64,000 nt of DNA. It comes from Sphaerolaimus hirsutus. Its lineage: Eukaryota > Nematoda > Chromadorea > Monhysterida > Sphaerolaimidae. Made by a program: the position numbers and the translations under genes. Within the stretch, counting starts at the first letter, position 1. Every line of letters starts with the position of its first letter. The notes under the pieces are model-generated. The model was not told where the DNA came from and searched no databases. It saw only the letters and a program-made list of their open reading frames with translations. Below, piece after piece: positions 3,523 through 51,942 of the stretch. The stretch lies in contig OZ038453.1 of the NCBI GenBank assembly GCA_964036195.1, positions 3,425,469 through 3,489,468 on the forward strand, read 5' to 3'.

Positions 3523-3566
3523 GTACATTTTGTTTTTCGAAAAATACTTGCGGGTATTCGTTTTTC

Positions 3567-10054: not shown

Positions 10055-10181
10055 GAACCCAGTACAATGCCCTGCAAAATGTCAAATGCCCTGCAAAATG
10101 GCAACTTTTGTGGAGGATTTTCAATGACTTGTGTGACATGTTGCATGACATTTGACATTTTACAGGGTCTGGGACTGTCAC
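10055..10181. repeat. Palindromic intron element, family I (copy a)
   Basis: On the minus strand it starts exactly at a donor, GTGACAGTCCCAGACCCTG, and runs into CCTGTAAAATGTCAAATGTCATG. The other arm (ATGCCCTGCAAAATGTC, twice) is degraded. It abuts exon 10182-10290 and belongs to the family described at 40774-40914. Confidence 0.6.
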
Positions 10182-24348: not shown

Positions 24349-24681
24349 CAGCTTGTTCTGGCCTGTGCTGAGCAATGTTTGCCCCACAGTCTTTATCAAA
24401 TACACCTGAATACAGTGGCAATACAGCAATTGATTCACAATGGGAAAAACCTGCAGTGACAACATGTGTACAACAATTTTTGCATTAAGTAAGTAAATAG
24501 CTGTTTGGAAACATATGAAGTTTGCAGGACAGTGTAAAAAATTCAAAAAATTCAGAAATTGAAGAAGTATTTTGTGAAAATATTGAAAAGACTTGAAGTT
24601 GTCTGACATTGTCAGCTAGAGGAAAATGCTCGGAATCGCGGATCTGGCAACTTGCCATCTAAGGTTGTGGGCCCCCCCCAG

Positions 24682-24985: not shown

Positions 24986-25407
24986 TGGCGTGGTAAGGTG
25001 TTTAGGCATTTAGGATTCACGTTTTTACGAATTTCGTGGTTTTTTTCGTGGTGTGTTATTTTTTGTGAATGGTGATTTCGCGTTTTTTGGGTCGATAGTA
25101 CTGTACGTTGAAGCGTTGATGGATTTATTACGGGTTCCATTTGTTCATTCCACTTTCACAGCGATCTGCTCGATTTGAAAATAAAACTGGCTATTTGAAT
25201 GAATTAGAGTGTTTGAAAGAAAAAATATCCTCCTACGTCTTCTTGTAAACAGTAAAATAAAGGATGTTAGCGAGTAAATTTTAAGTTCAATTAGTTTAAG
25301 CTAAATATTAGATTTTAAATTTTAGGAAAAGATTATTCCGGGTATTTTAATTAAACTGAAGTAGGCTGCTAGGCAGTGGACAGCCGAAAATCGGTTTGGT
25401 CAAAAAT

Positions 25408-28219
25408 ATGTGGCAGATCTATTTAGATCGTGCAGCCGCAAAAAAGTTGGGCAGCCCCCAACCAGTAGGCACCCACGCACCTGGTGGTTGCCATGGGTGG
25501 GGCCCACCTTGTAATTCACCTGCTATTCAAAAAAGTATTTTGCAGTGGGTTAGTGAAAATCCACCACACTTCTGTATAGGTGAGAAAATATTAGGCCAGA
25601 AAGTTATAAAATGTGGGCGGAATAGATGTATTAAATGTACACACATTGTGGACGTTGATACGCAAGTTTGTACGGTGACAAATAGAGTTTTCGAAACATA
25701 CTTTCCAACAGGTGTAAATGTGATAGATTGTAACAGTAAGTGTGTTGTGTACATGCTCACATGTGCCAAATGTAAGGCTCAGTACATAGGAGAGACTAAG
25801 CGGTCTCTGAGAGTACGTTTAGGCGACCATTTGAGGAATATTAAAAATAAGAAATCACAGTATTTATACTCACACTTCAACAGCGGAAAATGTTGTAATG
25901 ATGTGAAATGCACAGTGTTGTGGCATGGTGCAGAAAATTTACTTAGAAAAGTTGAAAAGATTTTCATGCTGGTTTTCAATCCGGGTTTCCCTTTAGGTTT
26001 AAATGATAATTCAGCAGGTGTTGGAAATTCAGTGTGTAAATTTGAAAATCTAGAAAGCTTCAAATATTCACCATATTTTTTGATTAAAGTGCCACGCCGT
26101 GAGCGTTCGCATGGAAATAATGTGTCACATTTATGACTCAGGAGTGATGAAGTGGCGGAGAAATTGGATTCATTGGTAAACATCACAGATTTTACGATCT
26201 ATGGGCGCCTACACCATATTTGTCAAACTACTCGCAAAACTGTATGGAAGGCGGCTATAGGACTTACTAAAGTGATAGATAAGAGAGTTGTAGATTTTGT
26301 AAAAATTGTAAATTTTAATGATACCTGTAAAAAAGATCCCCAAAAGAAAATAGGTTACAGAATTGTGGTAACATTTAAGAGTAAGTTGTTTGATAGAGTG
26401 AACTTAAAACGTATTTTACGCCGAAGGAATGTGATCAAATCGTTACCTATTATCTTGTGGGAAGAAGCTAAAAATGTGTCCTTGACCTTTAGATATGAAA
26501 ATCCGACGTTTTTGCGATTTTGTAACTACACAAAACGCCTGCGATATTTGAAATTTGAGGAGTTCCGGAGAATTTTGGATGGTGAGTGCAAATGCGGCCT
26601 GCGCGAAGGTACCAATTATGTCCATACACATTATGGTCATGTTTTTACTGGGCATTGTGGGATTGCAGAAAATTCTGAGCTGTGTGGTTTGCTTGAAAAA
26701 GGCAATAAATTCAGAATCCCACAAATAGAAAGTAAACTGGAAGTTTATAATGAATTGGTCTGTGGCGTGGGTGCATTTGTCACTCATTTGGTGAAAAGGG
26801 CAGTTAGGAGAGATTTTGTCGACGCTTTTATTACTCAGTTTAAGAGGGCATGTAGGGAGCATGTGTTTAGATTACCGATTACTAAAACTGCACCGGGCGT
26901 GGGCCCAACTACTTGGCGTGATCTGTCGCGATTACAAGTGGATCTTATAATGACACCGGTAGATAAAGCAGCAGCAAACGTGGCTTTTATATGCGATAAA
27001 CTCTACTTTAAGGTACTGGGTGATGAACTTGGCTATGTGCCAGAAACACTTCAGTTTTCTGATAGCAAAACTTATAGGCACATAGGAACTAAGGGCACCA
27101 ACTTTGCATCGCTGATGCAAAGGCATCAGAATATTTGCAAAAGGTATAACTATTGTGTTCATTACTTTAGTGATACTGTACCATTACTTTTCTGGACGGC
27201 CAAGCTACATAAAAACCCATACAAGTTCAGATTTGTTAGCGGGGCCAGAAAATCCAGCAACAAACCTCTGTGTTTATTGTGTTTGAATATTTGGCAGAGT
27301 TTGTTGAAAATGTTAAGATGCTACTGCCTTACTATTTCGGAACGTAGTGGCATGAGAGCTTATTGGATGGTAGAAAGTACCATAGAAGCATTAACTTGGC
27401 TGGAGAAATGGCAAAATGAAAAGGTTTCTATCGCATATACATACATTACATAGATTTTACCACACTTTTCCCTACATTACCCTTCAAAATTGTGATGGAG
27501 AGCATGAAAATGGCTATGACATTACTGGTAAAGACTGATTACATAAATGTTTTCAAGCAACATGTTTCATTTGACACTTTTGCAAAAAAGCGTGCGACTT
27601 TGACTCTTACTCGAGCAGAAGTAATGGAGTGTTTAGAATTGGGTCTGGTAGAAAATTTTGTTGAGTTTGCACGTAATTTATTCCAACAAAAATGTGGCAT
27701 TCCCGCCGGGGGTGCACACTCACCGGCGCTGGCAAACCTAACACTTTCCATGCTAGAGTACAAATATGTTCATGAAAATAAGAATTTGCCAGAAATTTGG
27801 AAGGCAAATAACAGGTTTTTAGGTACATTTTTAAATTTACAAATAACAATTTATAAATAACATTTTTAGGTACGTGGATGATTGCCTGGTGGTCAATTTT
27901 GATAGTTTTCTACATGATGCTAAATCTATCTATCCACCAGAGTTATGTCTCGAATTAGCGTCAGATCCAGACACAAACACTTGTCCATTCCTGGACCTGG
28001 AACTTGACTTTTCTGGTGACACCCTGAAATATAAAAACTTTGATAAGCGTAGACTGTTCGGCTTTCATGTAGTTAAATATATACACAAGGATTCTAATGT
28101 GTCATTGGTTGCTAGAGGCTATAAAAAAGATCATTGAGCGCAAAAAGTTTTTATCTCAAAAAGTGGAAATTTCTTCCAGCAAACAACTGGAATCTACATT
28201 AAAAGTGGCGCTCAACTGA
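25408..28219 (+). pseudogene. GIY-YIG endonuclease + Penelope-type reverse transcriptase, disrupted
   Basis: From ATG 25408 a Cys-rich segment (CGRNRCIKCTHI) precedes the GIY-YIG nuclease (VVYMLTCAKCKAQYIGETKR with downstream Arg and His). An in-frame TGA lies at 26134. The RT follows: DKAAANV (the Penelope DKG-like region), KLHKNPYKFR, YIDFTTLFPTLP (first catalytic Asp, near 27447), GIPAGGAHSPALANL and RYVDDCLVVN. The frame shifts at about 27440 within a TACAT run and again in the A-run near 28127. After the latter, frame reading resumes to a stop at 28217. A 55-bp intron (27815-27869) splits the codon before YVDD. One stop and two shifts make this copy unlikely to be active unless they are sequencing errors. 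The TGA could in principle be a selenocysteine codon. Confidence 0.75.
27815..27869 (+). other. 55-bp intron within the Penelope-like RT
   Basis: AATAACAG|GTTTTT...ACATTTTTAG|GTACGTGG. Removing it restores RYVDDCL across the junction (phase 2). The unspliced frame hits a stop at 27858-27860. Penelope-like elements are known for retaining introns. Confidence 0.75.
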
Positions 28220-28944
28220 CCTTTTATGCCTCTAACATCCAATTTACTGTGGTTTCTTACACAGAAAAAGCGGGACGGTCAGGGTCAGGAATCACCGTAC
28301 AAGTCACGGACAGTTCGGACATTTTCCGGAATTTTGGAAGTACGAGGGTGTACAAAAGCGCAAAAAAGGCAAAATTCGCAGTGCGGTGTGTTCGAAGCGT
28401 GTCAATTCTTTAGACACATAAACCATCGCACGTTAGGACTACATCAGAACCATCGATTGGTGACGATTTCCGTGTTTTCAAGGAGCGCTGAAAGTTGGTT
28501 TTATTGAAAGTTTGCAAGGTGAAAAACTGCTAGACTAGTTGTAATAAGTTGGCACCCTTCCAGTGGGAAGGCCGCCATTCGTGCACAGAGGAGGGTCGAA
28601 CCAAAATCAACGGCAGTCTTTCAAACGCCCCCGAATGTTGTCAGCGAACTCTACGCCACAGGGAAATGGTCAGAATATGGTCGGTTTTTCATTTTAATTT
28701 TTATAGCTAGGTTTTGTTATTGAAGTTTTTCGGTTGTGCGTTGAGCACAATGGGTTTTAAGTCCCGGCGGTGTTCACACTGATGAGTCCCGCACTGTAAC
28801 GGGGTGCAGGTCTGTGTTAGGGACGAAAACTGCTTATTTTTCTCCTACTAAGGTATTTAAATTATATGTATTTCCATTTTTCAAAAAAAAACTATTTTCG
28901 CAATGCTTATTTTTCATTTTCTAAATATACTAACCATTCAACAT
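28220..28944. other. 3' region of the Penelope-like element
   Basis: AT-rich DNA with GC-richer islands (28270-28500 and 28550-28680). No gene was recognised. The hammerhead-like core lies inside. The 3' border of the retroelement is not identified. Confidence 0.4.
28761..28830 (+). ncRNA. Hammerhead-ribozyme-like core in Penelope-like element
   Basis: CTGATGA (28779-28785) is followed directly by GTCCC (28786-28790). A loop containing a GCAC/GTGC pair follows, then GGGAC (28820-28824) and GAAA (28825-28828). This is the two-strand core and stem II of a hammerhead. A GTC lies just upstream at 28761-28763. I could not find convincing complements for both remaining stems, so the motif may be partial or completed by a tandem copy. 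Hammerheads are documented in Penelope-like elements. Confidence 0.6.
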
Positions 28945-29285: not shown

Positions 29286-29362
29286 CAACCACTAAAATGG
29301 TCAGAATTTAAATGGCTCTGGTGAGTAACAAATTCCCAATGAGAGGCTGGAAAAAGACAAAC

Positions 29363-29685
29363 CAGTAACAAATTCGCACACAGCTGCTGATGGACTAGCG
29401 AAAAAAAATTCATCCTGTTTAGGATGGTTAGGACGAGCATAACAACTGTCTGGAATTTGGTATGCACCTCCTCTCTGTCCATAGCTAAGTTCTCTGATAA
29501 TGCAATCAGGTTGAACTTTTTCAGATGAACTCTTCCTTTCTTCCATGTTCCAAAAGCCAGTTTCAGGTATGGGTTCACCATTGCTAAAGTACCAGTACTC
29601 CTTTGAGTTGTTGGCACCAGGTTTTGTCGGCTGTCCATCTACAGGGATGGACAATGGGGGATGTCTAAGATCAGCCCAGTGTTCA
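29363..29685 (-). CDS. Second half of C-type lectin-like domain, lectin gene exon B
   Basis: The exon reads SEHWADLRHPP..., then GANNSKEYWYFSNGEPIPET, a Cys-containing CIIREL and DSCYARP...AVCEF. This is the carbohydrate-recognition half of a CTLD: a WIGL-like HWADL, a GEP motif in place of EPN/QPD, and the final Cys pair. Entry is in phase 2 after an intron made of a family I element. Exit at ACTG|GTTTGTC is phase 1, matching the stalk exon 23191-23225. Unlike the 41.7-kb paralog, this copy has no intron between GGAYQ and the final Cys motif. It is probably secreted or membrane-anchored. Confidence 0.75.
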
Positions 29686-29692
29686 CTGATCA

Positions 29693-30018
29693 GGGGGCAC
29701 TCCCAGACCCTGTATAAGACCCTGTAAAATGTCATGTGTCTCATAAAAGACCCTGTAAAGTGTCAAATGTCATGTAAAAGACCCTGCAAAGTGTCATGTG
29801 TATCCAAATCTTCTTTTATCATATCCAAATCTGATGTTTTTTTGTATCAAAATCTTATGACACGGTCTTTTACATGACACATGACATTTTACAGGGTCTT
29901 TTACACTTTACAGGGTTTTATTACACTTTACAGGGTCTTTTACACTTTACAGGGTTTTTTACACTTTACAGGGTCTTTTACACTTTACAGGGTCTTTATT
30001 AGAGTCTGGAAGTGGCAC
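29693..30018. repeat. Palindromic intron element, family I (copy b)
   Basis: On the minus strand the ends are GTGCCACTTCCAGACTC and GGTCTGGGAGTGCCCCCTG. Between them are repeats of ACCCTGTAAA and GTGTCATG in one arm and TTTACAGGGTC in the other. It fills the whole gap between the two CTLD half-exons. The exact splice sites are ambiguous: outer-end sites give a phase clash, while phase-2 sites inside the repeat are available. Confidence 0.75.
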
Positions 30019-30195
30019 CAGATCATCCAGGTCAATCATTGCACTCTCAGTATCCATGATTGGCAGGTGGCCACCGAATGATGCACACACATCATAATCC
30101 ACAAATATATCAAGTGTTGGATTGAACTCCCGCTCTGCATAGAATGCAAAGCAGCGGTGTGGTTCTTGGGTGAGTGGAATGCAGCCCTCTTTTCC
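30019..30195 (-). CDS. First half of C-type lectin-like domain, lectin gene exon A
   Basis: From an acceptor AACCCCACAG with a CTAAC branch-like motif upstream, the exon encodes GKEGCIPLTQEPHRCFAF and later CASFGGHLPIMDTESAMIDL. This is the N-terminal CTLD half with three of its cysteines and the conserved C-GG-L block. It ends at GATGATCTG where the family I element begins. It is homologous to 41525-41689. An alternative, longer reading upstream (YPWVKQF) is open but looks like intron 3' sequence. Confidence 0.7.
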
Positions 30196-31285
30196 CTGTG
30201 GGGTTGTTGAAAATTGTTTTACCCAGGGATATGTTAGAGAAATGTGAAAGTACCATTCACACAAAAATTTGTATTTACAATTTTTACTCTGGTGTAAAAT
30301 GATAGTACTTTTGACTCAGAAGAGAACATTAAATAAGAGAAATAGGATATTTTACTCATACAAATGAAGGCATTTTTACACTTGATATCTGAAAGGAGCC
30401 CCACCTGTCAAGAAATGAAAAAAGTAGTAGAATTTTTTTCCACAAGTATATACCTGCAAACCACCATGAAATATGTAAGAATGAGTACTGGTATTAAAAT
30501 ACTTAGTTGAGAGATAATTTGAACAAATTTGTCTGGTACTCAACTGTCATAAATCCATGTATTCTGCTGTTTTTTGACTATACGGATCCAGAGAAGTTTG
30601 TCGTGCACTGCTTTTCCCTATTATCACACCACTTTATCACTGCTTGTCCCTGGTGTGCACTGCACAGGGCCCGGAGATCCAAATGATGCTGTTAAGTTTA
30701 AGGGAATGTGTCCGAAGACAGTTTTTTGCAGAGCGTGCAGTGATCCACTTGGGGATTATGCTGCTCTGTTTCCTGCGGCACGCACAGTGCTTACACTTAG
30801 CACAAGCAGCGCAGTGAAAAGCGATTGTTAATTGGCAACCAAAAGAGTACAGTTGGTATAATTACTCAAGGGTGGTCCAAGTTGGTTGAGAAGAGAATTT
30901 ACTTTTTGGGCGATGGAAATACGCTAAAGCAGCAGAGTCAAAGCAATCAAATTTCAGTCAAAGTGAATGTGAAAAAAACAACAATTAGCTACTTATAAGA
31001 CGTAGTTAAGTACCATAATCGAAATAAATAAAAAAGGCTAAAAAATACAATCTAATAGAAAGGCATGTAATCATTGTCGAATCTGGTAAGCTCTTAATAA
31101 AATTGAAAGACAGGTAGTGAAAAAATGCTTACGTAAATAGATCAACTAAGTGTGCGTTACTACTAAACACATCAAAAGCATCAAACATTAGCTACATGCG
31201 ACATGGGGCTTAATTTAAAGAATAGTAGATATACAATAAACAGGTAAATACTTCCATAACTACCTACAACTTCCTACTTAGCTAA
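30196..31285. other. Stretch without a supported gene
   Basis: AT-rich DNA. A GC-richer patch at 30640-30830 has an open plus frame (GMCPKTVFCRACSDPLGDYA) after TGCACAG, but no clear donor and no family match. I treat it as unassigned. Confidence 0.4.
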
Positions 31286-39645: not shown

Positions 39646-40674
39646 CTGAAGGTTGGGTGAATGTTGAGCATTGATATAAAAAATGTAGATTGTTCTGAAT
39701 GTTTATTTTCTGCAACACTGGAAAAAAAATTCTAACAAAAACAACTAGGTATTATAAGATGATGGGTACTACACTATTTGTGTACATATTGTTATTCATT
39801 TCCTTTTCTGTTTAACAACTTCTCCTACTTCCTAGTGCCCTGTGCCCATTTTGTAAATAGGTGTTTGGTTCAGTAGGCAGTTTCAAAAATATCTTTATTT
39901 ACTTCTACATAAAAACTATATTATTTTCACTTATTTTATTTTTTATATTTCACAGTAAGTACTTGAGGGCAAAGTAAATACATTTCTTTCCAACCAAAAA
40001 TTCAGACCATGTTATTCAGAGTAAATTTTTTAGATCTCAATGTACCGTACTGAACTGATGTAAAACTGAGTATTTTTCTGTTTTTACTCATGAATATTTA
40101 GTAATTTTCACACTTAAAGATATAAAAATGATATTTTTAAACACTTTTTCAGTGAAACATTTTTCAATAATAAACAAAATATGAAAATCAATACATGTTT
40201 CATTTTTTATCAAAACTATATATCTTAATCGAAAAAAAAATCAGGATTAAAAATTTTTTTCTGTTCTCAGATGTTCTCAGAATGTTCTCAGATACATTCA
40301 AACAATATATATAAAACTGGCTAGAAGTGCTATTTTGGAAGGAAATGTGAATGTATTTACTCAGTACTTTAGCATACATATTTCTGGTAAAATTCTCAGA
40401 ACAGTGCATGCCAGAACACATTGCTGCTGTTTTGACATTTTACTTCTGATGTTACCTCAACTGAAGATTCATCAATTTCCTAGACTTGACTGGCTGGACT
40501 GACTCACTAAGCCAAAATAGTCAAGTTTAAAAAAGTTGAGTACCAAGCCCACCTACAGATCTATAGAAACATATCTCTACTTTCTAAATATCTGAACCTT
40601 CAAATTGTTCAAACTTAATGTTTGCAATGAGTAAATAGCAAGCTCCCAATGGTGGAGTAGAAATTAAAACAAAC
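39646..40674. other. Intron of the lectin paralog
   Basis: AT-rich intron between the last CTLD exon and the stalk exon. Several short minus frames exist, but none has paired splice sites or a recognisable domain. Confidence 0.4.
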
Positions 40675-40761
40675 CAGTGTTAAATTCACAAACAAATGCT
40701 GTAGGATGTGCATTAGCAGGGAAGGATGATGAATTATTTTCATCATTTGGCTGATAACATT
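40675..40761 (-). CDS. Last segment of C-type lectin-like domain, lectin paralog exon C
   Basis: It encodes CYQPNDENNSSSFPANAH and TAFVCEFNT, the C-terminal Cys motif of the CTLD. With acceptor GCTGAAG and donor ACACTG|GTTTG it runs from phase 1 to phase 1, fitting both neighbours. In the 29.4-kb paralog this segment is continuous with the preceding exon, so the intron before it is specific to this copy. Confidence 0.7.
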
Positions 40762-40773
40762 CTTCAGCAACCA

Positions 40774-40914
40774 GGGGGCAGTCCCAGACCCTGGCAAATG
40801 CTCTGCAAAATGTCAAATGTCATGCAAAGTGTTAAAAGTTATGTAAAGTGTCCTGCAAAATGGCAACTCAGTTGACATTTTACAGGGTATTTTTACAGGG
40901 TCTGGGGCTGGCAC
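40774..40914. repeat. Palindromic intron element, family I (copy c)
   Basis: On the minus strand it begins GTGCCAGCCCCAGACCCTG and ends CAGGGTCTGGGACTGCCCCC. The arms carry TGTAAAATGTCAACT and ATTTTGCAGGACAC. At 141 bp it is the shortest member. It interrupts the CTLD at a site where the 29.4-kb paralog has no intron. Confidence 0.8.
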
Positions 40915-40925
40915 CTGGTGTGCAC

Positions 40926-41172
40926 CACCTCTTTGTCTCGAAGCAATTGTTCTCAAAACACAAAACATTTGCACATCTGGCATGTATTCAGGTTGATCAC
41001 TATCCCAAAAGCCAGTTTCAGGTATGGGTTCACCATTGCTAAAGTACCAGTACTCCTTTGAGTTGTTGGCAGCATCTTCTGTTATCTGGCCATCCACATA
41101 AACCCATGCGGGGGAATCGCCAGTCTGTGGTTCACAGCTAGAGACCAAATCATCCAGGTGCCACTCCCAGAC
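40926..41172 (-). CDS. Middle of C-type lectin-like domain, lectin paralog exon B
   Basis: The exon reads LDDLVSSCEPQTGDSPAWVY, then VDGQ, SKEYWYFSNGEPIPETGFWD and MFCVLRT. Canonical sites are ACAAG|GTC at entry and AGAGGTG|GTGCAC at exit, giving phase 0 to 1. With these sites the first five codons (VWEWH) come from the end of the flanking palindromic element. It is homologous to 29363-29685, sharing GEPIPET and NNSKEYWYFSNG almost unchanged. Confidence 0.75.
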
Positions 41173-41541
41173 CTTGTAAAAGACCCTGTAAAGTGTAAAA
41201 GACATTGTAAAATGTCAGGTGTCATGTAAAATACCCTGTGAAGTATCAAATGTCATGTGTACAGTAAAGTGCCATGTGTATCCAGTAAAGTGCCATGTGT
41301 ATCCAAACCTTATAGTATCATAACCAAATCTTATCTTTTTGTATCCATATATTACTTCTGTACATAAGATTTGGTGTCACATCAGGGCATTTTACCTGAC
41401 ATTTGACACTTTACAGGTTTTTTACAAGGTCTTTTACACTTTGCATGACACATGATCCTTTTCTGGGTATTTTACATGCCACATGACATTTGACATGGTC
41501 TTTTACACTTCCAGTGTCTTTTACAGGGTTTGGGAGTGCCC
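41159..41541. repeat. Palindromic intron element, family I (copy d)
   Basis: It is flanked by CCAGG on both sides (41154-41158 and 41542-41546), a possible 5-bp target duplication. The ends are TGCCACTCCCAGACC and GGGTTTGGGAGTGCC. It is in the opposite orientation to most copies. Canonical splice sites are supplied inside its ends: CCCT|GTAAAAG and TTTTACAAG|GTC on the minus strand. It contains TATCCAAATCTTA-type internal motifs shared with copies b and g. Confidence 0.8.
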
Positions 41542-41689
41542 CCAGGTCAATCATTGCACTCTTAGAATCCATAATTGGCAGGCGGCCACCCAATGATGCA
41601 CACAAGCCAAGTACAGAAGTTCCAGTGAATTGCACTAATGCAAAGCAGCGGTTCGGTGCTTGGGTTAGCGGTATGCAGCCCTCTATTCC
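41525..41689 (-). CDS. First half of C-type lectin-like domain, lectin paralog exon A
   Basis: From acceptor ACCACCCCACAG the exon encodes GIEGCIPLTQAPNRCFAL, then LCASLGGRLPIMDSKSAMID. It is 55 codons, phase 0 to 0, with the donor CCCT|GTAAAAG located inside the family I element. The paralog at 30019-30195 shares most residues. Upstream exons with a signal peptide were not found. Confidence 0.7.
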
Positions 41690-42428
41690 CTGTGGGGTGG
41701 TTGCAAATTGTTCTACCCAGGGATATGTTGAACAAGTGTCAAAGCACCTTTCACACAAAAAATTCATCAAAAAGTTGAGTTTTTTATTCACATAAATATA
41801 TTTACTTACAATGAAAACTGAAATCATTAACATTTTTTGTATAATGTATTTATTATTTTTGTGTACCTTCCAATGTATAATTTTTTTAAATTGAAATATG
41901 TTTTTCATGACACTGTAATATCATTTCCTACTGAGCAGTGCTCACTATCACTGTTAGAAAGTTTAATGGAAACCTGCAATTTTTTGTTTTTGTGACATGC
42001 ATTACTTTTTTTTTGTTGCAATTTTGTATTGTTGTGCATCTCCCAAGGTTCCAGATGTATGGCAGTGAGAACAAATATGTGTATCCAATATTTGTTTAGT
42101 TAGGCATATTGTTTCCTCACTTGCTAGAACAAGTAAAATATACTCCACCGACATTACACCTTACAATGAAATGTACCATATCCCATCTGAATAAAAGAAC
42201 AAACATAAAAAATGTCATCATATTAAAAATATCCCATCTGAATAAAAGAACAAACATAAAAAATTTCATCATTTGAAAAATATCTAATTTGATAAATATG
42301 ATGAAATTTTTTGATGTTAGTTCTTTTATTCGGATGGGATATGGTAGATTCCATTGTAAGGCGTGATGTCGGTGGAGTATACAACACACTAGCTTTTCAA
42401 ATTGAGAATGCTGGCCAGTATTTAGGGG
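41690..42428. repeat. Intergenic/intronic DNA with palindrome copy b (42130-42385)
   Basis: 42130-42385 is a second member of the CATCACACC palindrome family. CACCGACATTACACCTTAC at left is inverted as GTAAGGCGTGATGTCGGTGG at right, with the interior partly duplicated. The rest is AT-rich with no exon seen. Confidence 0.6.
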
Positions 42429-43175
42429 TAGTGATGGAAAAGCGCCAGAAAAAAGGGCGCCAAGCGCCAATGGCGCCATGGCGCCATTCGGAAACTGGGC
42501 GCCAAGCGCCAAGGGCGCCACAGAAAAAGGGCGCCAGGCGCCAAGTGCGCCATGGCGCCATTCGGAAAGTGGGCGCCAAGCGCCAAGGGCGCCACGGAAA
42601 GAGGGCGCCAAGCGCCAAGGGCGCCATGGCGCCATTTGAAAATTAGGGCGCCAGGCGCCAAAGGCGCCAGGATAAATAAGTGTGTATGATACCCTGCGTG
42701 TGCTAAAAATGGTTCTCCAACACTATATTTCACACAATCACTTCTTTAATTATGTTCTCTAGGATGTAATCAACAAAAACGAAACTAGCAACAAAAATTT
42801 TGCATAAAATCATATTTACTCACGCGTGAATTTTAATTCAAACACAATGAAAATTGTCGCAAAGCATTCACCTCAAATAGATTTTTTGCAATGGATGTTT
42901 TTTTGAAGTGGATAAAAACGGAATTAAAACGATTTGAATCCGTTGATTGACAAGTTTGTTGGTTGCACGGTCCATCATTCCAGCCGAAGTGTCTGGAAAA
43001 CCATTGGACGAACGATTTCAATCCACTGGCACCACGTGTATTTTTCCAGCGAATTTCGATTATCCAGGGATGCGCTTTTTTGTTTTTTATCGTTTTCGCA
43101 GCGCTCACCTTGAAATCCTGCTGGCGCCATTTTGGCGCCCTTTTAAAGCAGGGTTTGTGATCACAGTTGTATCAA
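42429..43175. repeat. TAGTGATGGAAAAGCGCC element with GGCGCC satellite
   Basis: It starts TAGTGATGGAAAAGCGCCAG and continues as degenerate GGGCGCCAAGCGCCA tandem DNA to 42672. A unique ~450-bp segment follows (from AATCACTTC to TTTTGGCGCCC), paralogous to 56720-57180 and 57400-57700. No right terminal repeat was found. Translations of the GCGCC tract are artefacts. Confidence 0.65.
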
Positions 43176-43310
43176 TGCAAGTGATTTTTGATCTCTCAGA
43201 AAACTGTATTACAGAAGAGACTTACCATATCGGTGGGATACACAGACCCAAGGAACAGCACTAATCCAAGAAATACCTGAGATGTGCAGTTTGTCAGTTT
43301 AAAAAACAAC

Positions 43311-43673
43311 TACCGTATTTCCTCGAAATACCCCCCCGGGGGTGATTGTTTCATAGTGGTCCCGAGAGGGGGGGGGTTAAACGAGTGGGGGTATTTCGAG
43401 GGGGGGGTTATCATTTCACAAGAAAATTTTTGAAAACCAAGTAAGAAATTGTCGTCTGAAACGTACGCAGACGAAGAAAAATGCAACAAAAACTGCCACT
43501 TATAAGGTTCTGTAGACTAATATTAGTATGTAGATGGTATGTACACTGTTCTAACGTGACACCGACATTGTTTTAACGTGTGTTCTGCAGTACACAGAAC
43601 ACAAACTACAGTTATTGTCATGTACGTTCCCTTTACACTCAATTTGGGGGGGGTATTTCGAGGAAGTACGGTA
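43311..43673. mobile_element. Intact CCGTATTTCCTCGAAATA MITE (363 bp)
   Basis: TACCGTATTTCCTCGAAATA at left and GTATTTCGAGGAAGTACGGTA at right. C and G runs follow the ends. No ORF. It is the cleanest representative of the window's most frequent short element. Confidence 0.75.
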
Positions 43674-43768
43674 GGCAAAACACGAAGTATGTCAGAGCCC
43701 TACCATAATTTGATGAATAAAATCTTGTGATAAATTAAATGATTAATTATTTCATAGTAAAGACGAAA

Positions 43769-45056
43769 TACCGTATTACCTCGAAATACCCCCAGGGGGT
43801 TTATTATTTCGCCAGCAAAATTTGAGGGGGGGATAATTCGAGGGGGGGTTTATTCGAGGGGGGGTCTATTATTTCGCCAGAAATTTTCGGAAATTCCCCA
43901 TACGCTGACGTAGAAAAATCAAACAATTACATTGATGTATATGTGTTTATACGCATATATAACTGTATATACACAAAAACCCTTCCCTAACGTCACTTAA
44001 TCATCAGTTTTAACGTGTGTTCTGCATTGTACCAGAGTTGCGAAAGCGTATTTACGCTTACCCGAAATACCCGGGTAAATGGGTATTTATACTTACGCTT
44101 ACGCTTACGCTTTCATAAAATACCCGTACGCCTTTTTACGCTTTCCCGGCCAAAATACCCGGGTACTAAAAGCGTAAAAAAAGCTTTTCACACGGTTCAG
44201 TTTTACACTTTTGAAAAAGCATAAAACCACAAAAAAGAGTGAACGAAACTGCGTACCAAAAAAATAACTGCGTGCGTGCAGTAATGTGCTGGAAATAGTG
44301 GCACGTTTACAAATTGTGTCGCAGTATGAATGTCTTGCTAATACTGTGTCGTCGAGCAAAATCGTGGCTTCAGATAAGAAATTTTGGGCTGAAAATGGAT
44401 TCCGATGACGATGCTGTCGCCGACGACGATGTTGTCGCTGTCGACAGCACTAACTCCAAGTTGGAAGATAAAAAGATGACTTGCCGTGTTTCTTCTAATA
44501 GAAGAGCAGCCTCCAATAGAACGTCACCTCCCATAGAACGGCCGGCAAAAAAGTTGACGAAAAAAATTGAACGGTGCTCTTCTATTAGATAGAATAAATA
44601 CGGTAAGTGTCGCTGCCGATGAATTGCCAAACAACATATGAGGGCAGACTACCAGATGGACATCCAAAAAATGTCACTGAGAGCTTGATTTGGAAAGAAT
44701 TCACTGATAAAACGTCTCTTAAAGATTTTTTACGCTTACACTTTTATTTACGCTTTCCCAGGTATTTTAAAAATACCTTACGCTTTAAGTATCCATACTG
44801 AAAAATTTGGAAAGTGTATTTACGCTTACGCTTACGCTTTCCAAAAATACCGGTATTTTAACAACTCTGCATTGTACAGATCACAAACTGCGGTATTTGT
44901 CATGTACGTTTACGTTACACTCAATCTTAGGGGTGTGTATTTCGAGGGGGGGGGGGGTTTTATTATTTCCTCAGCTGAAATTTAGGGGGGGTATTTCGAG
45001 GGGGGGGGGGGGGGTTAATTCAGAGGGGGGGGGGGTTAATTCGAGGTAATACGGTA
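43769..45056. mobile_element. CCGTATTACCTCGAAATA MITE split by a hAT-type insertion
   Basis: The left end TACCGTATTACCTCGAAATA and right end CGAGGTAATACGGTA belong to the same family as 43311-43673. The interior is interrupted at 44025-44032 by the element 44033-44869, which gives relative ages: this MITE is older than the insertion. Confidence 0.75.
44033..44869. mobile_element. Non-autonomous hAT element (837 bp) with 8-bp duplication
   Basis: The ends CAGAGTTGCGAAAG and TTTTAACAACTCTG are inverted. CATTGTAC flanks both sides (44025-44032 and 44870-44877). TTACGCTTACGC arrays fill the subterminal parts. An internal frame with MDSDDDAVADDDVVAVDSTN (from 44395) may be captured or relict transposase sequence. 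I do not recognise a domain. Confidence 0.85.
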
Positions 45057-47073
45057 TCATGACTAAAAACTGTATACCTAGTTTTTGATTCATTATTCAG
45101 ACGGGTTATGGTAGGTTGCCATACTAAGTGTCATGTTCATTGAGTAAAATAAAAATTTACCAAGAAATGTGAGAGGGGCTGTTAAAAATGATTTGCATAT
45201 GCAAACTTCTTAATCAACCATTTTAAGATTCTTGATGTGTAGAGTTCCTGGCAATAAGAACATTGCTACCTACCATCTTCGAATAAGACCCCCCCCCCCT
45301 CGAATAAACCCTCCCCCTTGAATAACCCCCCTCAAAACCATTGACGAAAACATAACCCCCCTCGAATAACGCCCCCTCTTGAATAAGTCCCCCCTCTTGA
45401 ATAAGTCCCCCCTCTGGGTGAAAAACATGCTATAAAATTTACAAAAATGATCGATGACATGACATGTACGCAGTGTATAAACACCTTTTTGTTGTTGTTT
45501 AACTGTTAAATACATAGATTACATGAGTTGACAGAATGCATTCATACGATGAATTCAGTACAAGTTTCTGAGGAAAAATAACTCCCTCCCTTGATTAACT
45601 CCTCCCCCTTGAATAAGTACCCCCTCAAAAACTCTGACGAAAAAATAACTCCCCTGGCCATGGGGTCTTATTCGAGGATATACAGTATATGCATATGGAA
45701 ATCAATAGTGCAATGAATCTGGTTTCACTTACCAAGATAGAATTGAACATTTCGCTTTTTCAGCAATGTTTTGTGGCCTGTTCATTTATTTATGACAAGC
45801 TAAGAAATATTGTAATTTTTTTTTTGTGATTTCTGAGGCTGATTGTGTAGAAGTGTGAATGCAGTAATTAGATGAAAATAGACATTTTCTGTAGCCTCTC
45901 AGCTGCACATAATAGGTACAACGATATTTAGCTAAACTATTTAGTTCATGCAAAAATAAGTGTTCATAATAAATATCCATTACTACTGAAAACTTTCTGT
46001 GCAATTTATGGGACTATTTCATGAAATTATGGTAACAATCCCTGTAAAGTCTACTGCCCATTTTATTATGACAGTTACAGAGCCTGTTACAATTTCCCAT
46101 CCACTCAAGGATTTATAGTGCAGATATGTTCGCTTCTATTGAGGTGTTCATATGATATTCATGTTCACTATAAATACACTCAGTAAACTTCTAGTGCATG
46201 TAACCCTGCACTAGAAAAATGAACTTCAAGCACTTCTAGTACCAGATAATGGGTACCCAGATTATGGTACCTTCAGGTACCCAGAATATGGTAAAATTAA
46301 ACCTAAGATGTGCAGGGTTGTGTTTAATGATCATGATGGAATGCATGAACCAAAATGTATAATGAAGTGTCAAAATAATGATAAAAAACAATGCACTTAA
46401 ACAGTGAAGTGAAAAATTATCTGCCTTTGTCTTTCCTGTCAGAAAATCTTTTCAACCCTGGGAATCCTCTCAAAACTGATAATTTATTGCAAGTGAACTT
46501 TCCCAACAGAATGGAGAATATGATAATGTTATTTTTCCGAACTATTCAAGAATTTCAAACTTGTTTGTGAATGATAACTGCAATCCATGCATGCATACAA
46601 CACATCACACTTTGTAGTGAAATCTACCATATACCGTATTACCTCGAATTAACCCCCCCTCGAAATACCCAACTCTAAAATTCGGCTGAGGAAATAATAA
46701 AAACCCCCTCGAAACACCCCCCCCCCCCCTAAAATTGAGTGTAAAGGGAATGTACATGACAAATACCGCAGTTTGTGATCTGTACAATGCAGAACACACG
46801 TTAAAACTGATGATCGAATGACGTTAGGGAAGGGTTGATGTGTATGTACACTTATATATGCCTATACATACATATACATCTATGTAATTGTTTGATTTTT
46901 CTACGTCTGACTATGTTGAATTTCTGAAAATTTCTGGCGAAATAATAGACCCCCCTCGAAAAAAAAACCCTCGGATTATCCCCCCCTCAAATTTTGCTGG
47001 CGAAATAATAAACCCCCTGGGGGTATTTCGAGGTAATACGGTATTTACAATCTGTAAAACAATATTTAAAACC
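45057..47073. repeat. Intergenic DNA with CCTCGA elements and a 46633-47043 MITE
   Basis: 45270-45688 is a CTCGAATAA/AAGTCCCCCC element (GAATAAGACCCCC left, TATTCGAGGATATAC right). 46633-47043 is an element with TACCGTATTACCTCGAATTA and CGAGGTAATACGGTA ends. The rest (45690-46630) is AT-rich with no exon seen. Confidence 0.6.
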
Positions 47074-47311
47074 TTATTTATTTTTTGTCATATCACTCAT
47101 AGGCGGCGTAAGTGCTTGGGTGCTTGAGAATGTCACATGACGGAGAAATTTTAGTGTCACAACCAGAAATTTCACTGTCACATTGTGATTTGTGATATTC
47201 AGTAGATCAAGGATGACACTTCTTTTTGTTGAAGAAAATTCATCACCACTAATATCACATACTTTTGCCAAACAATCACGATCCCAAAAAATCACGAACT
47301 GCCTGTCGAGC
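47074..47311 (-). CDS. Terminal exon of transmembrane gene
   Basis: Entry is at acceptor CAATGCCCCAG provided by a family I element, in phase 2. The exon encodes 79 codons (including stop) beginning LDRQFVIFWDRDCLAKVCDI and ending TPPMSDMTKNK. An AATAAA overlaps the stop and may serve polyadenylation. No domain is recognised. It is the last of a phase-consistent chain of twelve exons starting at 55731, so it would be the cytoplasmic C-terminus. Confidence 0.6.
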
Positions 47312-47502
47312 CTGGGGCATTGCCAGACCCTGTAAAAAGCCCTGTCAAATGTCAAATGTCATGCAAAGTGTCAAAAGTCATGTGAAATGCCCTGCAAAAT
47401 GGCAACTCGGTTGCCACTTTGCAGGGCATTTTGCATGACTTTGGACACTTTGCATGACATTTGACTTTTTACAGGGCATTTTACAGGGTCTGGGAATGAC
47501 AC
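47312..47502. repeat. Palindromic intron element, family I (copy f)
   Basis: On the minus strand it runs from donor GTGTCATTCCCAGACCCTG to acceptor GGTCTGGCAATGCCCCAG. The arms (ATGCCCTGCAAAATGGCAAC region) are a near-perfect hairpin centred near 47405. The intron is the element with almost nothing added. Confidence 0.85.
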
Positions 47503-47530
47503 TTGGTGGCTGTTTTGAGGCTGGAGTGAA
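47503..47530 (-). CDS. 28-nt microexon between two palindromic introns
   Basis: It lies between acceptor CAACTTGTGGAG and donor CACCAA|GTGTCA. It goes from phase 1 to phase 2 and encodes roughly HSSLKTAT. Its size is what keeps the frame between 47736-47875 and the terminal exon. It would be a remnant of a longer exon cut by two element insertions. Confidence 0.55.
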
Positions 47531-47735
47531 CTCCACAAGTTGATAAGTAAAAGAGCAATTTGAGGGTGGGAAGTAAAAAGGTATATGATAAGTAAATTTG
47601 GAAGTGAGAACTGAAATTTGAAGTAAAAAGTGAATTTTTAAAGCATTTTCTCACTTCTAAAAATACTTTTGTTTCAACCTTTTACTTCTCACTTCACAAT
47701 TGTAATATTACTTCTCAACTTAGCAGAATTGGCAC
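47531..47735. repeat. Palindromic intron element, family II (copy a)
   Basis: On the minus strand it begins GTGCCAATTCTGCTAAGTTG then AGAAGTAATATTAC, and ends TACTTATCAACTTGTGGAG. The arms are built of GAAGTAA/TTACTTC-type motifs. It shares no sequence with family I beyond GTGCCA at the donor end. Confidence 0.7.
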
Positions 47736-47875
47736 CTGGTTTCTTTCTGGTTTCTGGTGCCTCTTTTGCTGGTGTCTTGTTTGGTGTTGTCTCTTTTGAG
47801 GCTGGTGTACCTTGTGAACCTGGTGCCTCTTTAGAGCTTGGTGTCTCTTGTGAGACTGGCGGAGGAGAGGCTGGC
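47736..47875 (-). CDS. Pro/Thr/Ser/Glu-rich exon of transmembrane gene
   Basis: The acceptor is TTGACCATACAG and the donor AAACCAG|GTGCC. The chain frame (phase 2 to 1) reads PASPPPVSQETPSSKEAPGS, QGTPASKETTPNKTPAKEAP and ETRKKP, with an internal repeat of SKEAPG/SKETTP. A second frame, QPLLRQSHKRHQ, is open but breaks the downstream phase. It is likely a disordered cytoplasmic segment, because the transmembrane exon lies upstream. Confidence 0.55.
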
Positions 47876-47886
47876 CTGTATGGTCA

Positions 47887-48426
47887 AGGGTCAGTTTCAC
47901 AAGTGGTAAAGTACTTTACACTTCACTTCACTATTTACTCTTGACTTGAACTCTTTACTCTTTAATTTACACTTAACTCTACTCTTTACTATACTCATTG
48001 CTTTCCAATTATCAGTTTACTTGATTTTGAACTTTACCATTGAATCTATACTTTGCTCTTTTGCTATAAACTTTAATCTTCACTTTACTCTTCACTTGAC
48101 TCTTTACTTTACTCTTTACTCTTAACTTTACACTTAACTTTACTCTTTACTTTACTCTTCACTTTTTACTTTACTCTTTACTCATAACTTTACTAACTTT
48201 ACTCTTCACTTAACTATTTACTTTTTACTTTACTCTTTACTCAAAACTTTACTAACTTAACTCTTCACTTTACTCTTTACTCTTAACTTTACACTTCACT
48301 TTACTCTACTTTACTCTTTACTTTACTCTTCACTTTACTCTTTACTCATTCATAACTTTACTAACTTTACTATTCACTTTACTCTTTACTTTAATCTTTA
48401 CTTTGCCACTTGTGGAACCAGCCCCT
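47887..48426. repeat. Palindromic intron element, family III
   Basis: The ends GGTCAGTTTCACAAGTGG and CCACTTGTGGAACCAGCCCC are inverted. The interior is a degenerate ACTTTACTCTTT satellite. On the minus strand it starts at GGGGCTG|GTTCCAC and ends before ACCATACAG. A related fragment lies at 58485-58615. Confidence 0.7.
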
Positions 48427-48438
48427 GAAGTAACAATA
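48419..48438 (-). CDS. 20-nt candidate microexon
   Basis: It lies between GGGACACAG and GGGGCTG|GTTCC. It runs from phase 0 to 2, as needed to join 48647-48670 with 47736-47875. Too short for independent support. Confidence 0.3.
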
Positions 48439-48646
48439 CTGTGTCCCACTATGAACTGAAGCTATTGTATTTGCTCAAATAACTCCCCTGGAAAAACTCC
48501 ATCTTTTTCTTTAAAAAATGTTTTCTTTTTTTGTGAAAGTATGTGCATAAGTATCACATAGGTGCATCGGTACTACGACATAAGTATCTAAATACATAGT
48601 GAGCTGTCCACCCAGTACAGGCACAAATAATTTCTGGACAACTGAC

Positions 48647-48670
48647 GTGAACTCGCTGTGGTCCCCTTTG
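48647..48670 (-). CDS. 24-nt candidate exon after family I element
   Basis: It follows acceptor CCTGGACAG and ends at CGAGTTCAC|GTCAGT, a near-consensus donor. It encodes QRGPQRVH in phase 0. A longer frame continues past this donor to a stop near 48554, so the exon end is uncertain. Confidence 0.35.
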
Positions 48671-48867
48671 CTGTCCAGGGGGCACTCCCAGACCCTGTAA
48701 AAATCCCTGTAAAATGCCTAATGTCATGCAAAGTGTCAAAAGTCATGGAAAATGCCCTGCAAAATGGCAACCCTGTTGCCATTTTGCAGGGCATTTTCCA
48801 TGACTTTTGACACTTTACATGACATTAGACATTTTACAGGGCTTTTTACAGGGTCTGGGACTGGCAC
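48671..48867. repeat. Palindromic intron element, family I (copy e), near-perfect hairpin
   Basis: On the minus strand GTGCCAGTCCCAGACCCTG opens and CAGGGTCTGGGAGTGCCCCC closes. The two ~95-bp arms (for example AATGCCCTGCAAAATGGCAA) pair almost without mismatch around a loop at about 48770. It is the clearest example of an intron that is a single palindrome. Confidence 0.85.
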
Positions 48868-48933
48868 CTGGCTATCTCCCGTGCCCTCAGTTCTGGTGTT
48901 CAACACTTGCGACCTGTATGCCATCTCTGTCGT
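48868..48933 (-). CDS. Exon of transmembrane gene, cytoplasmic segment
   Basis: The acceptor is TCTCCTTCAG and the donor GATAGCCAG|GTGCC. It is 22 codons, phase 0 to 0: TTEMAYRSQVLNTRTEGTGD plus SQ. Downstream of the membrane exon in the chain, the Tyr in MAYRSQV would face the cytoplasm. No domain name can be given. Confidence 0.6.
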
Positions 48934-49003
48934 CTGAAGGAGATTAGGGGGTGTCATAATGAGTTGACGGACTGTTGATGTTCAGTTGACTGTGGAGAAC
49001 TAG

Positions 49004-49697
49004 TTGCCAATTTTGCATGTTGAGAAGAAAAACGATTTAACTAGAATGGTGAAGTATGAAGCTAAGAGAGAAGTAACTCTTATGGAAGAAAAGTAAATTG
49101 CGGTAATTTCGAAGTAAGAAATAAATTTCTAAACTCATTACTTCTCATTTTGCTTCCCTCTTCCAAATTGACTTTCCTGTAAAATTGTTATTTCAAATTT
49201 CACTTCTCTCTTAATTTTTTTACTTCTCAACTTGCGGAATTGCCCCCCAGGTGCACTCCCAGGCCCTGTAAAAGACCTTGTAAAATGGCATGTGTCACTA
49301 AAAACCCTGTAAAATGTCATGTGACATGAAAAGACCATGTCAAGTGCAAAATGTCATGTAAACGATCCTGTAAAGTGTCATGTAAGTCATGTATCTAAAT
49401 GTTTTTATTGTATCCAAATGTTAGGTTGTTGTATCCAAATCTTACTTTTTTACAAAATATATTGGTACTTTTGGACATCAACAATGAGATTTTGATGTCA
49501 AAAAGTAAGATTTGGATAGAAAACATATAATTTGGATACAACAAAGTAAGATTTGGAGACACATGACACTTGACAGGGTCTTTTACATGACATTTGATAC
49601 TTGACATGACACATGACATTTTACAGGGCCATTTACATGACAATTTTACAGGGTCTTTGACACTTTACAGGGTCGTTTACAGGGTCTGGGAGTGCCC
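49004..49697. repeat. Tandem palindromic intron elements, family II (copy b) and family I (copy g)
   Basis: 49004-49245 is family II: GCCAATTTTGCATGTTGAG at left, CTCAACTTGCGGAATTGCC at right. 49250-49697 is family I: AGGTGCACTCCCAGGCCCTG at left, GGGTCTGGGAGTGCCC at right, with TATCCAAAT...TTGGATA mirrored inside. Together they fill one intron between exons 49713-49777 and 48868-48933 with only a few bases between them, consistent with one inserting at the edge of the other. Confidence 0.75.
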
Positions 49698-49712
49698 AGT
49701 AATGTTTCCCAC

Positions 49713-49777
49713 CTGGTTTTCAGTGGTGACCATGGTGGTCGACGTGTTGAAGGTTGACGTTTCGGGCTCGCGCGAGA
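49713..49777 (-). CDS. Ser/Thr-rich exon of transmembrane gene
   Basis: The acceptor is TTTCAAATGCAG and the donor GAAAACCAG|GTGGG. It goes from phase 1 to 0 and encodes SREPETSTFNTSTTMVTTEN plus Q. It joins 51280-51347 (ends phase 1 at CATG|GTGCG) and 48868-48933. The family I element begins a few bases beyond the donor. Confidence 0.6.
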
Positions 49778-49840
49778 CTGCATTTGAAATTTTATGCTTC
49801 CTCGGTTTATGCGATTAGATAGGGGGAAGGGTTTTTTTTG

Positions 49841-50800
49841 CAGAGTTGTTAAAATACCGGTATTTTTGGAAAGTGTAAGTGTAAGTGTAAATACACTTTC
49901 CAAATTTTGAGTATGGATACTAAAAGTGTAAGGTATTTTAAAAATACCTAGGAAAGTGTAAAAAAAGTGTAAGTGTAAAAAATTTTTTTAGAAAGAGCTC
50001 TCACTGTTGAGCATTAGAAAACACCACTGTTTTCACCTTTAGATCAATTTATTTGTCATTTTCATGCATTATTTCACATTTTACTGCATTTTATGAAATT
50101 ATTCAGCCTGTAACAAATACTGTAGTGGTATGAAGTTCCCTAATGGGCCCACACACGCTAGTTGACATCGACACCAAATGTCAACTGGTGCCAATCCCGA
50201 TTCAAAGCTTGCTGAGGAGTGTACGAACGACGTTCAAACGCAATTTTTGAATTAGGAACGGAACCAGTTGACATTTGGTGTCGATGTCAACTAGCGTGTG
50301 TGGGGCCAATAATGGGACTTTTTCAGTGTTGATATTTGACTGATTAAGCAATGCAATACACACTGTTTAAATGCAAGAATGGACATGCAGCAAATGTCAA
50401 TGCAAAAGCCAGTTGACTTTGTGTCCAGCTGGTGAATTTCCATTGATCTTGTCCTTTTTACAAAAGTATGATGAAACTGTAGAATACCATGAGTACTGAT
50501 CAAAGGTTGGAGATCAAAGGCTAGTTTGTACATTTTCCATATTTTCTACATTCAATGCATAACTGCGTGTGTGCACTGTGCAGTTGTTTTTTGTACATGA
50601 CCCTATTTTATGCTTTCTCAAAAGCATAAAACAGGGCCATCTGAAAGAAACAAAATACACTTTCTGTACCCGGGTATTTTGCTGAGGAAAGTGTAAAAAA
50701 AGTGTATGGGTATTTTATGAAAGTGTAAGTGTAAGTGTAAATATAAATACCCATTTACCCGGGTATTTCGGGTAAGTGTAAATACACTTTCGCAACTCTG
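49841..50800. mobile_element. Non-autonomous hAT element, second copy, GTGTAAGTGTAA-rich
   Basis: CAGAGTTGTTAAAATACCGG at left and CACTTTCGCAACTCTG at right match the ends of 44033-44869 in the opposite arrangement. The flanking 8-mers are similar but not identical. The palindrome 50145-50307 sits inside. Confidence 0.75.
50145..50307. repeat. Palindromic element, CACACACGCTAGTTGAC family (copy b)
   Basis: GGGCCCACACACGCTAGTTG, then GACACCAAATGTCAACTGG, is mirrored as CATTTGGTGTCGATGTCAAC and CTAGCGTGTGTGGGGCC. The arms are near perfect, about 55 bp, with a loop of about 50 bp. It is nested in the hAT element 49841-50800. Confidence 0.75.
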
Positions 50801-50928
50801 GTTTATTGAACAATTAGATAGGGGGTTAATGGGCTAGATAGGGGGTAACCCCCAATCTATGTCAGGAACCCTCGGGTATCCGATAGATAATTGTTGACTA
50901 CTTACCCCCACCAATCAACCAACTATCC

Positions 50929-51171
50929 ACCGTACTTCCTCGAAATACCCCCCCCCCCCCACCCCTCCAGGGGTGTGATTGTTTCAGAGTGCAAATTGTG
51001 AGGGGGTTATTTCGAGGGGGCTTTTTATTTCGCCAGAAATTTTTCGAACTCCCAGTACTGATTTGTTGTTTGTAATGCATTGCCCGAAGCACAAACCGCA
51101 GATTTTGTAATTTACGTGCAATTTACACTCGATTTGGGGTGGGGGGGGGGTATTTCGAGGAAATATGGTAC
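50929..51171. repeat. CCGTACTTCCTCGAAATA MITE
   Basis: ACCGTACTTCCTCGAAATAC at left and GTATTTCGAGGAAATATGGT at right, with C/G runs. Same family as 43311-43673. Confidence 0.7.
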
Positions 51172-51279
51172 CTATCTTGAAAAACTGGCTGTGAAAAACA
51201 CATCGAATCAGGCAACATGATTTCATAATGGATGAATCGCAGCTGCCTACAAAAATGATGTGGGTCAAAAATTTCGCAC

Positions 51280-51347
51280 CATGCTTTTCAGTGCTGGGCT
51301 TGTCCGTGTTTCCCTCCTCTTTTATCGCAACCTCATTCGCCCGATCC
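51280..51347 (-). CDS. Juxtamembrane cytoplasmic exon of transmembrane gene
   Basis: The acceptor is GGACTGCCCCAG, inside a family I element, and the donor is AAAGCATG|GTGCG. It goes from phase 2 to 1 and encodes DRANEVAIKEEGNTDKPSTE plus KH. It follows the membrane exon, whose end is HRRTQSAA. Charged and disordered. Confidence 0.65.
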
Positions 51348-51942
51348 CTGGGGCAGTCCCGCACCCTGTAAAGTGCCATGTCAAGTGTCAAGTGTCAAGT
51401 GACATACAAATGTCTATCAGAATATCTTTTTTTCATTTCTTTACGGTTGACATTTTGTAAGATATTTTTACAAATGAGTATGATGGTATGGATGACATTT
51501 GAGAAATTTGGCACACACTAGTTTACTAACGGTAAACTGAGAATTTGGTAAACTCATTTTTCGGCTTCTGAGCGCACCTCAGTTTACCGAAATGAGCGTT
51601 TTGTCAACTACAGTTGGAGGAGATTGAAAATAGCACATTCCGGTAAACTCAGATGCGCTAGGAAACTAATAAATGAGTTTACCAAATTCTTAATTTTCCA
51701 TTAGTAAACTAGTGTGTGCAGCGGCTTTATGTCTTTGTCATTTGTTTGTGAAATCTGTACACAACATTGTAGAAGTTTGTCATTTCGTTTCCGAAGTTTG
51801 CACACGGCATTTTACAAGCTTGTCACATGTTGTCAAGTCTGTACACGACATTTTACAAGTTTCCTAATTTTCTGTCAAGTTTGTACATTACATTTGACAC
51901 TTGACACTTGACATGACACTTAACAGTGTGTAGAACTGCCAC
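51348..51942. repeat. Family I intron element (copy h) with nested palindrome
   Basis: On the minus strand the intron opens at CAA|GTGGCAGTTCTACACAC and closes GGGTGCGGGACTGCCCCAG. AAGTGTCAAGTGTCA tracts fill both arms. A separate palindrome at 51510-51721 (GCACACACTAGTTTACTAA and TTAGTAAACTAGTGTGTGC) is inserted in the middle. Confidence 0.7.

Follow-up and report, generated by a model that had tools for sequence, protein, structure and literature searches.

The 64,000-nucleotide stretch of the Sphaerolaimus hirsutus genome analysed here (assembly GCA_964036195.1, contig OZ038453.1, positions 3,425,469 to 3,489,468, hereafter the window) carries a pair of paralogous minus-strand genes and eight palindromic elements, three of which lie within this pair. 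An initial annotation had proposed that these elements are introners, that is, copies of a transposon that form introns in exons, in immune-like receptor and lectin genes. The evidence assembled below makes it highly probable that the palindromes are one high-copy, non-autonomous family of miniature inverted-repeat transposable elements (MITEs) of the NuwaI/PIF-Harbinger type, which target CWG (CAG or CTG) trinucleotides, and that this family acts as an introner in a nematode.

The genome searched was the 348-Mb assembly of 762 contigs. An exact 19-mer from one end of the element, termed D, matched 1,500 times and its reversed control not once. A 24-mer with up to three mismatches found 18,242 ends genome-wide, against 0 for the control. 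This second search also picks up the other end, termed A, so the family would comprise ∼9,000 copies. The two ends are unlike: D is GTGCCAGTCCCAG and A is ...CTGCCCC. The D end reads GTGCCAGTCCCAGACCCTG and the A end, in reverse complement, reads GGGGCAGTCCCAGACCCTG; D can thus provide a GT donor, and A can provide an acceptor when CAG follows it. Pairing the ends revealed a 3-bp duplication at the element edges, which in most pairs is CAG or CTG. A hAT-type assignment, with an 8-bp duplication and terminal inverted repeats (TIRs) starting CAG or CACT, had been considered and was dropped, since end pairing gave the 3-bp CWG.

Flanks were tabulated for 77 copies whose D end was exact and whose right end could be found (duplicates L025, L048 and L080 were dropped). 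CAG or CTG stood on both flanks in 68 of the 77, and the same CWG on both in 55. By left/right flank the classes were CAG/CAG (33), CTG/CTG (22), CTG/CAG (10), CAG/CTG (3) and other (9). A 189-nt consensus, built from 60 copies, folds into one hairpin (-166.9 kcal/mol) in which a three-base loop and the four terminal bases on either side are unpaired. Similarity extends to both predicted splice boundaries in many copies. Near-identical duplicated segments that share one element copy were also seen, namely L024/L025 (C1 3.74 and 3.95 Mb), L046/L048 and L079/L080.

Insertion into genes was studied in 60 copies along contig C1, taken as they followed one another in the lists of CAG and CTG matches, and in an additional sample of copies within 20 ten-kb regions. 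The flanks were joined with the element removed and one CWG copy kept, and open reading frames (ORFs) were then scanned against Pfam. For 40 of the C1 copies a right end was sought first and found in 37; the sense-strand scan covered 20 of those 37 loci. A Pfam domain ran across the junction at eight independent loci, six above the cutoff and two just below it, and two more loci lie outside the 37-copy sample (Table 1). The host genes of the insertions are of many kinds, and the immune-like setting first suggested did not hold. None of 19 background ORFs contained a domain above the Pfam cutoff. The scans themselves returned Pfam families; cyclin Y, BCKDHA, SLC23, Na/K-ATPase, BRE1 and SMYD are the names that we assume apply to host genes.

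In two of these genes the insertion point splits an invariant protein motif. The CNOT9 protein is closest to that of Plectus sambesii (93% identity over 98% of the query), and its next seven named matches are also nematodes. It has a single matching locus in the genome, with its two matches flanking the element. The sequence at the insertion point, GAL^VKTD, is invariant in all six aligned proteins, human and hydra included. The element has a CTG duplication on both sides, and therefore its exact removal would be that of a GT...TG intron; the resulting joint would read ...GCCCTG^GTGAAAACC. OSCP1, which contains two insertions, is likewise closest to P. sambesii (72% identity), with molluscs as the next named matches. 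Together with a nematode-type Srx chemoreceptor, these proteins mark the host as a nematode and may place it near Plectus. At its intron 2, again flanked CTG/CTG, the motif MDKLYDL^MTMA is invariant in 7/7 proteins. In such genes the element sits at a new position in a coding exon and the protein is otherwise intact. Its putative identity as an introner, as initially proposed, is well supported by this protein evidence.

Table 1. Element copies and host genes in the window, and sampled loci elsewhere in the genome whose Pfam domain spans the junction left by element removal (^, junction; scores are given against the Pfam cutoff)
Feature	Position	Strand	Details
Truncated copy	10055..10181	-	D-like end GTGACAGTCCCAGACCCTG only; A end not recognisable
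Full element	29694..30018	-	D end first relative to minus-strand gene, after codon ...IDLDDL; CTG on both sides (30019-30021 and 29691-29693)
Full element	40775..40914	-	D end first; left CAG (40915-40917), right CTG (40772-40774)
Full element	41158..41542	+	Opposite orientation, A end first in gene; CTG on both sides (minus-strand sense)
Full element	47314..47502	-	D end first; CAA/CAG flanks; in Ser/Thr/Pro-rich sequence
Full element	48679..48867	-	Near-perfect hairpin, exact D end; left CAG, right CTG
Longer diverged copy	49251..49697	+	Orientation probably opposite; CTG flanks
Longer diverged copy	51350..51942	-	CAA/CAG flanks; donor AA^GTGGCA, acceptor GCCCCAG^
Host gene copy 1	29358..30218	-	Exons flank 29694-30018; cysteine-rich; limits approximate
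Host gene copy 2	40660..41745	-	Paralog of copy 1; exons around 41158-41542 and 40775-40914; limits approximate
L046, Srx (nematode-type chemoreceptor)			Above cutoff; near-identical L048 not counted
L063, Rcd1 (CNOT9)	C1:10595668-10596373		Above cutoff
L052, Xan_ur_permease	C1:8474080-8474880		Above cutoff
L051, Cyclin_N	C1:8369615-8370415		Above cutoff
L065, Sugar_tr			Above cutoff
L068, AMP-binding			Above cutoff
L050, E1_dh	C1:8334914-8335714		Below cutoff (21.3 vs 22)
L066, Calpain_III			Below cutoff (19.2 vs 21)
L023, Oscp1	about C1:3590600-3593200		Outside 37-copy sample; across two junctions, above cutoff
L070, Cation_ATPase_C			Outside 37-copy sample; above cutoff

These features suggest a simple route from transposon to intron. 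The element would insert into an exonic CWG trinucleotide and duplicate it. When it lies D-first, the GT with which it begins would serve as the 5′ splice site, and the right-hand copy of the target duplication would provide the 3′ splice site with its two final bases. Because the 3′ site would lie within that copy, removal would restore the original coding sequence exactly. A CAG target would then yield a canonical GT-AG intron, and a CTG target a GT-TG intron that is apparently tolerated. The element also carries TTTTACAG, which lies 19 nt before the terminal dinucleotide. This subterminal motif may matter for recognition rather than as a cut site, possibly as the recognised AG that aids the use of TG. 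Over time, the right CTG copy would be converted to CAG. All eight independent loci with a junction-spanning domain in the 37-copy sample are D-end-first. The outer end indeed supplies the predicted donor, GTGCCA, and, where the right duplication is CAG, the predicted acceptor, TGCCCCAG, as the initial annotation had it.

Conversion of the right-hand copy finds support in an asymmetry between the flanks. Copies with CTG on the left have CAG on the right in 10/32 cases, and the reverse, left CAG with right CTG, occurs in 1/33 (p 0.003; a curated count from which the window copy and ambiguous ends were dropped). The CAG share is also lower on the left (686/1,273) than on the right (883/1,493) genome-wide (p 0.005). 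Moreover, CTG/CAG copies diverge more from the consensus than CTG/CTG copies (7 vs 19 copies of 135-200 nt, p 0.02). At the cyclin locus, the left CTG codes for leucine (ITL^VYIERLL), the residue that we take the cyclin Y homolog to have at this site; CTG is thus probably the original target there. The asymmetry and divergence data fit, and suggest, TG splice sites that are functional and become improved to AG with age. In total, we consider it an even question whether these CWG palindromes, thousands of them in a nematode genome, become introns where they land in exons, a large share of which would be spliced GT-TG in highly conserved genes, with the TG later turning into AG. A coding-like copy without a Pfam match, L084, has left CAG and right CTG, a mismatch that it shares with window copies 40775-40914 and 48679-48867. 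In copies of this kind, a change at the left base may have favoured the donor.

Several observations weigh against this interpretation, and the TG acceptor is the part most exposed to them. We infer splicing from genomic sequence rather than from transcripts, and without curation the reverse class rises to 3/36 copies, so that the asymmetry reaches only p 0.03. The sense scan reached only 20 of the 37 loci, with several frames picked by eye, and the E1_dh gene of L050 (CTG/CTG) has a second match elsewhere that is 43% identical. A possible though less probable account keeps the same introner and lets CTG-target copies be spliced at a nearby AG, located either within the A end or in the exon that follows, at the cost of a few residues, or lie in non-functional alleles, so that TG is never used. 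In-frame GT-AG alternatives exist in 11/12 CTG/CTG copies examined, and for six of them (L023, L039, L060, L063, L065 and L066) the protein would change by a net 0 to 4 residues. Use of the element's own donor with a downstream AG costs two residues at L039, four at L060 and five at L066. The right-hand change from CTG to CAG itself suggests that TG is inferior. The human TG 3′ splice sites described by Szafranski et al. (2007, PMC2374985) occur only beside an AG site, within 28 nt, and never alone. Against splicing at a nearby AG, no in-frame GT-AG alternative was found for L050 within the range tried, and at L041, L044, L046, L048 and L052 such alternatives come only with 14 or more additional residues. 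At CNOT9, with its single matching locus, and at OSCP1, the alternatives replace invariant residues.

It is also conceivable that the palindromes are ordinary MITEs that merely lie within pre-existing introns and between genes. Some copies are placed in this way. The element of L038 probably lies in an intron; its antisense ORF has a GDT1 match that lies away from the junction, on the 3′ side of a TTTACAG that is probably a splice site. A minus-strand element at L017:8505-8883 apparently coincides exactly with the 5′ splice site of an older intron in a MYND-domain gene, where it appears to replace the donor, with the old acceptor kept. Many sampled flanks lack a domain: 12 of the 20 sense-scanned loci had none across the junction, and among eight further CAG copies scanned only L070 was above the cutoff. 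Still, this explanation is very unlikely, as insertion points split invariant protein motifs, and the eight junction-spanning cases of the 37-locus sample compare with none among 19 background points. Equally hard to credit is a programmed, precise DNA elimination in somatic cells, like that of the internal eliminated sequences of ciliates, with one CWG copy restored. Such elimination would explain exact restoration whether the right end shows AG or TG. DNA excision would have no need for the D-first arrangement of the domain-supported insertions, with GT upstream, and the right copy changes to CAG oftener than the reverse.

The initial annotation had further envisaged a dual-mode palindrome that splices in either orientation through a subterminal donor, CTGTAAAA, and the subterminal acceptor TTTTACAG. 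The consensus holds both motifs. A splice at CCCT^GTAAAA and TTTTACAG^ nevertheless leaves a net 37 nt on the consensus and therefore shifts the frame, which speaks against these sites as a general mode. They do read in frame at window copy 41158-41542, because its ACAGG became ACAAGG; the internal GT-AG option there (CCCT^GTAAAA with ACAAG^GTC) adds 11 residues. Splicing in either orientation was not borne out by the sampled copies. In the antisense control (longest frame, 30 of the 37 loci), 0/30 ORFs had a domain above the cutoff, and among 31/37 antisense ORFs examined there was no exon insertion with a domain across the junction. The dual mode is thus highly improbable, and insertion D-first into an exonic CWG remains our preferred reading.

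The window copies themselves confirm the initial annotation in part; its core holds, and its scope was too modest. Inverted-repeat elements are present at all eight places, and 7/8 have both ends recognisable. Their positions were right overall, with edges that the CWG duplications move by 1 to 8 bases, and of the seven two-ended copies 41158..41542 and probably 49251..49697 have the opposite orientation. Consistent exon phases hold for precise removal in the paralogs at 29.3-30.3 and 40.6-41.8 kb. The element at 40775..40914 is not in the paralogous gene at 29.3-30.3 kb (GGAHQ^VAEEC vs GGAYQIPDSC), and that at 41158..41542 (IDL^DDL) lies 9 nt upstream of its paralog's site (IDLDDL^). The elements in the two paralogs thus look like independent insertions into paralogous exons. 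The element at 51350..51942 separates, in frame as judged by eye, a transmembrane/basic exon (...RRTQSAA) from a cytoplasmic exon (...KDRANEVAIKEEG). Neither host gene copy matched a Pfam family at E 0.1; copy 1 had no PDB sequence match at E 10, and a comparison with 11 candidates gave no homolog at E 10. The proposed lectin identity found no Pfam, protein-database or PDB match, and a C-type lectin assignment was rejected, its resemblance being one of cysteine/motif pattern only.

Among transposons, the closest counterpart is the NuwaI group of the PIF/Harbinger-related superfamily (PHIS), known from animals, with a 5′-CWG-3′ duplication and TIRs of 12-61 bp that usually start GGG (PMC4482050). 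The S. hirsutus element shares the CWG target duplication, and its A end, GGGGCAG, fits the GGG start. Its D end, GTGCCAG, differs at position 2, its arms extend over ∼90 nt, it is non-autonomous, and nematodes are not among the NuwaI hosts listed in that source. A NuwaI-type autonomous partner would encode a DDE transposase and a Myb/SANT ORF and share the TIRs; its transposase was not found. Of 163 genomic matches to PF13359 (DDE_Tnp_4), three loci were examined and none of them had the element's ends; NuwaI membership is therefore not proven. These loci (L089-L091) represent a high-copy DDE_Tnp_4 family in which a match to 147 profile positions stretches over 633 nt and contains in-frame TGA stops, which suggests an intron of ∼192 nt within the transposase gene.

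Introners that arise from transposons are established in other lineages. In the survey of Gozashti et al. (2022, PMC9860276), they occur in only two groups among animals and land plants, both animal, and some, as in Chrysochromulina, carry their own 5′ splice site and borrow the 3′ site from the duplication. The present family shares with them a multi-copy transposon that forms introns in exons, as well as the TIRs and short target site duplications of many introner families. The Chrysochromulina example has 4-bp duplications and no TIRs, in contrast to the 3-bp CWG target and palindromic hairpin body seen here. Also unlike the introners described there, the 3′ site here would be AG or TG according to the target base, with signs of TG-to-AG conversion. 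Introners in nematodes did not come up in a literature search of openly licensed PMC articles. What is new here is the nematode host, the CWG palindrome and the alternation between AG and TG.

Departures from the GT-AG rule have precedents as well. The TG 3′ splice sites of human U2 introns share the TG dinucleotide and the tandem AG within 28 nt; in the cases described they are rare, alternative and never the sole site, whereas TG here would be the productive site of a whole intron family (PMC2374985). In C. elegans an altered 3′ dinucleotide is tolerated (Aroian et al. 1993; Zhang and Blumenthal 1996, cited in PMC10946897), although the cases cited there are single mutations (AA, AC) and not a natural family. 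The Fritillaria lineage also provides an animal genome with many introns outside the rule. According to PMC13326754, 95% of its introns escape the rule and U2AF is duplicated, in contrast to the one transposon family with GT donors seen here.

The window contains additional repeats. By motif, an uninterrupted 2,915-aa ORF at 12929-21676 (+) resembles a BEL/Pao retrotransposon polyprotein, long ORFs at 1500-7040 (+) resemble ORF1 and the endonuclease-reverse transcriptase of long interspersed nuclear elements, and ORFs at 24620-28413 (+) resemble a Penelope-like GIY-YIG/reverse transcriptase element. A different hairpin family, with ends CAG^GTGCCAATTCTGC...CTCCAG^, lies at 47537-47735 (-) within a Ser/Thr-rich stretch. 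It is possibly a second introner family that shares the donor start, and its sequence (GTGCCAATTC...) has three matches in the DNA stretches examined. Close to it, at 47900-48430 (-), an AGTAAAG-rich repeat array between GGGGCTGGTTCCACAAG-like ends is another probable MITE.

Introners are a leading candidate for explaining how introns are suddenly gained. With thousands of copies from one family, some in highly conserved genes, a nematode would offer a tractable animal system for the study of such gain. If CTG copies are indeed spliced at TG, the GT-AG rule would be broken by an entire family of introns, and the passage of newborn introns from non-canonical to canonical form, from TG to AG, would be observable within one genome. 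Such a family would bear directly on the question of how cells tolerate new introns that selection has yet to refine.

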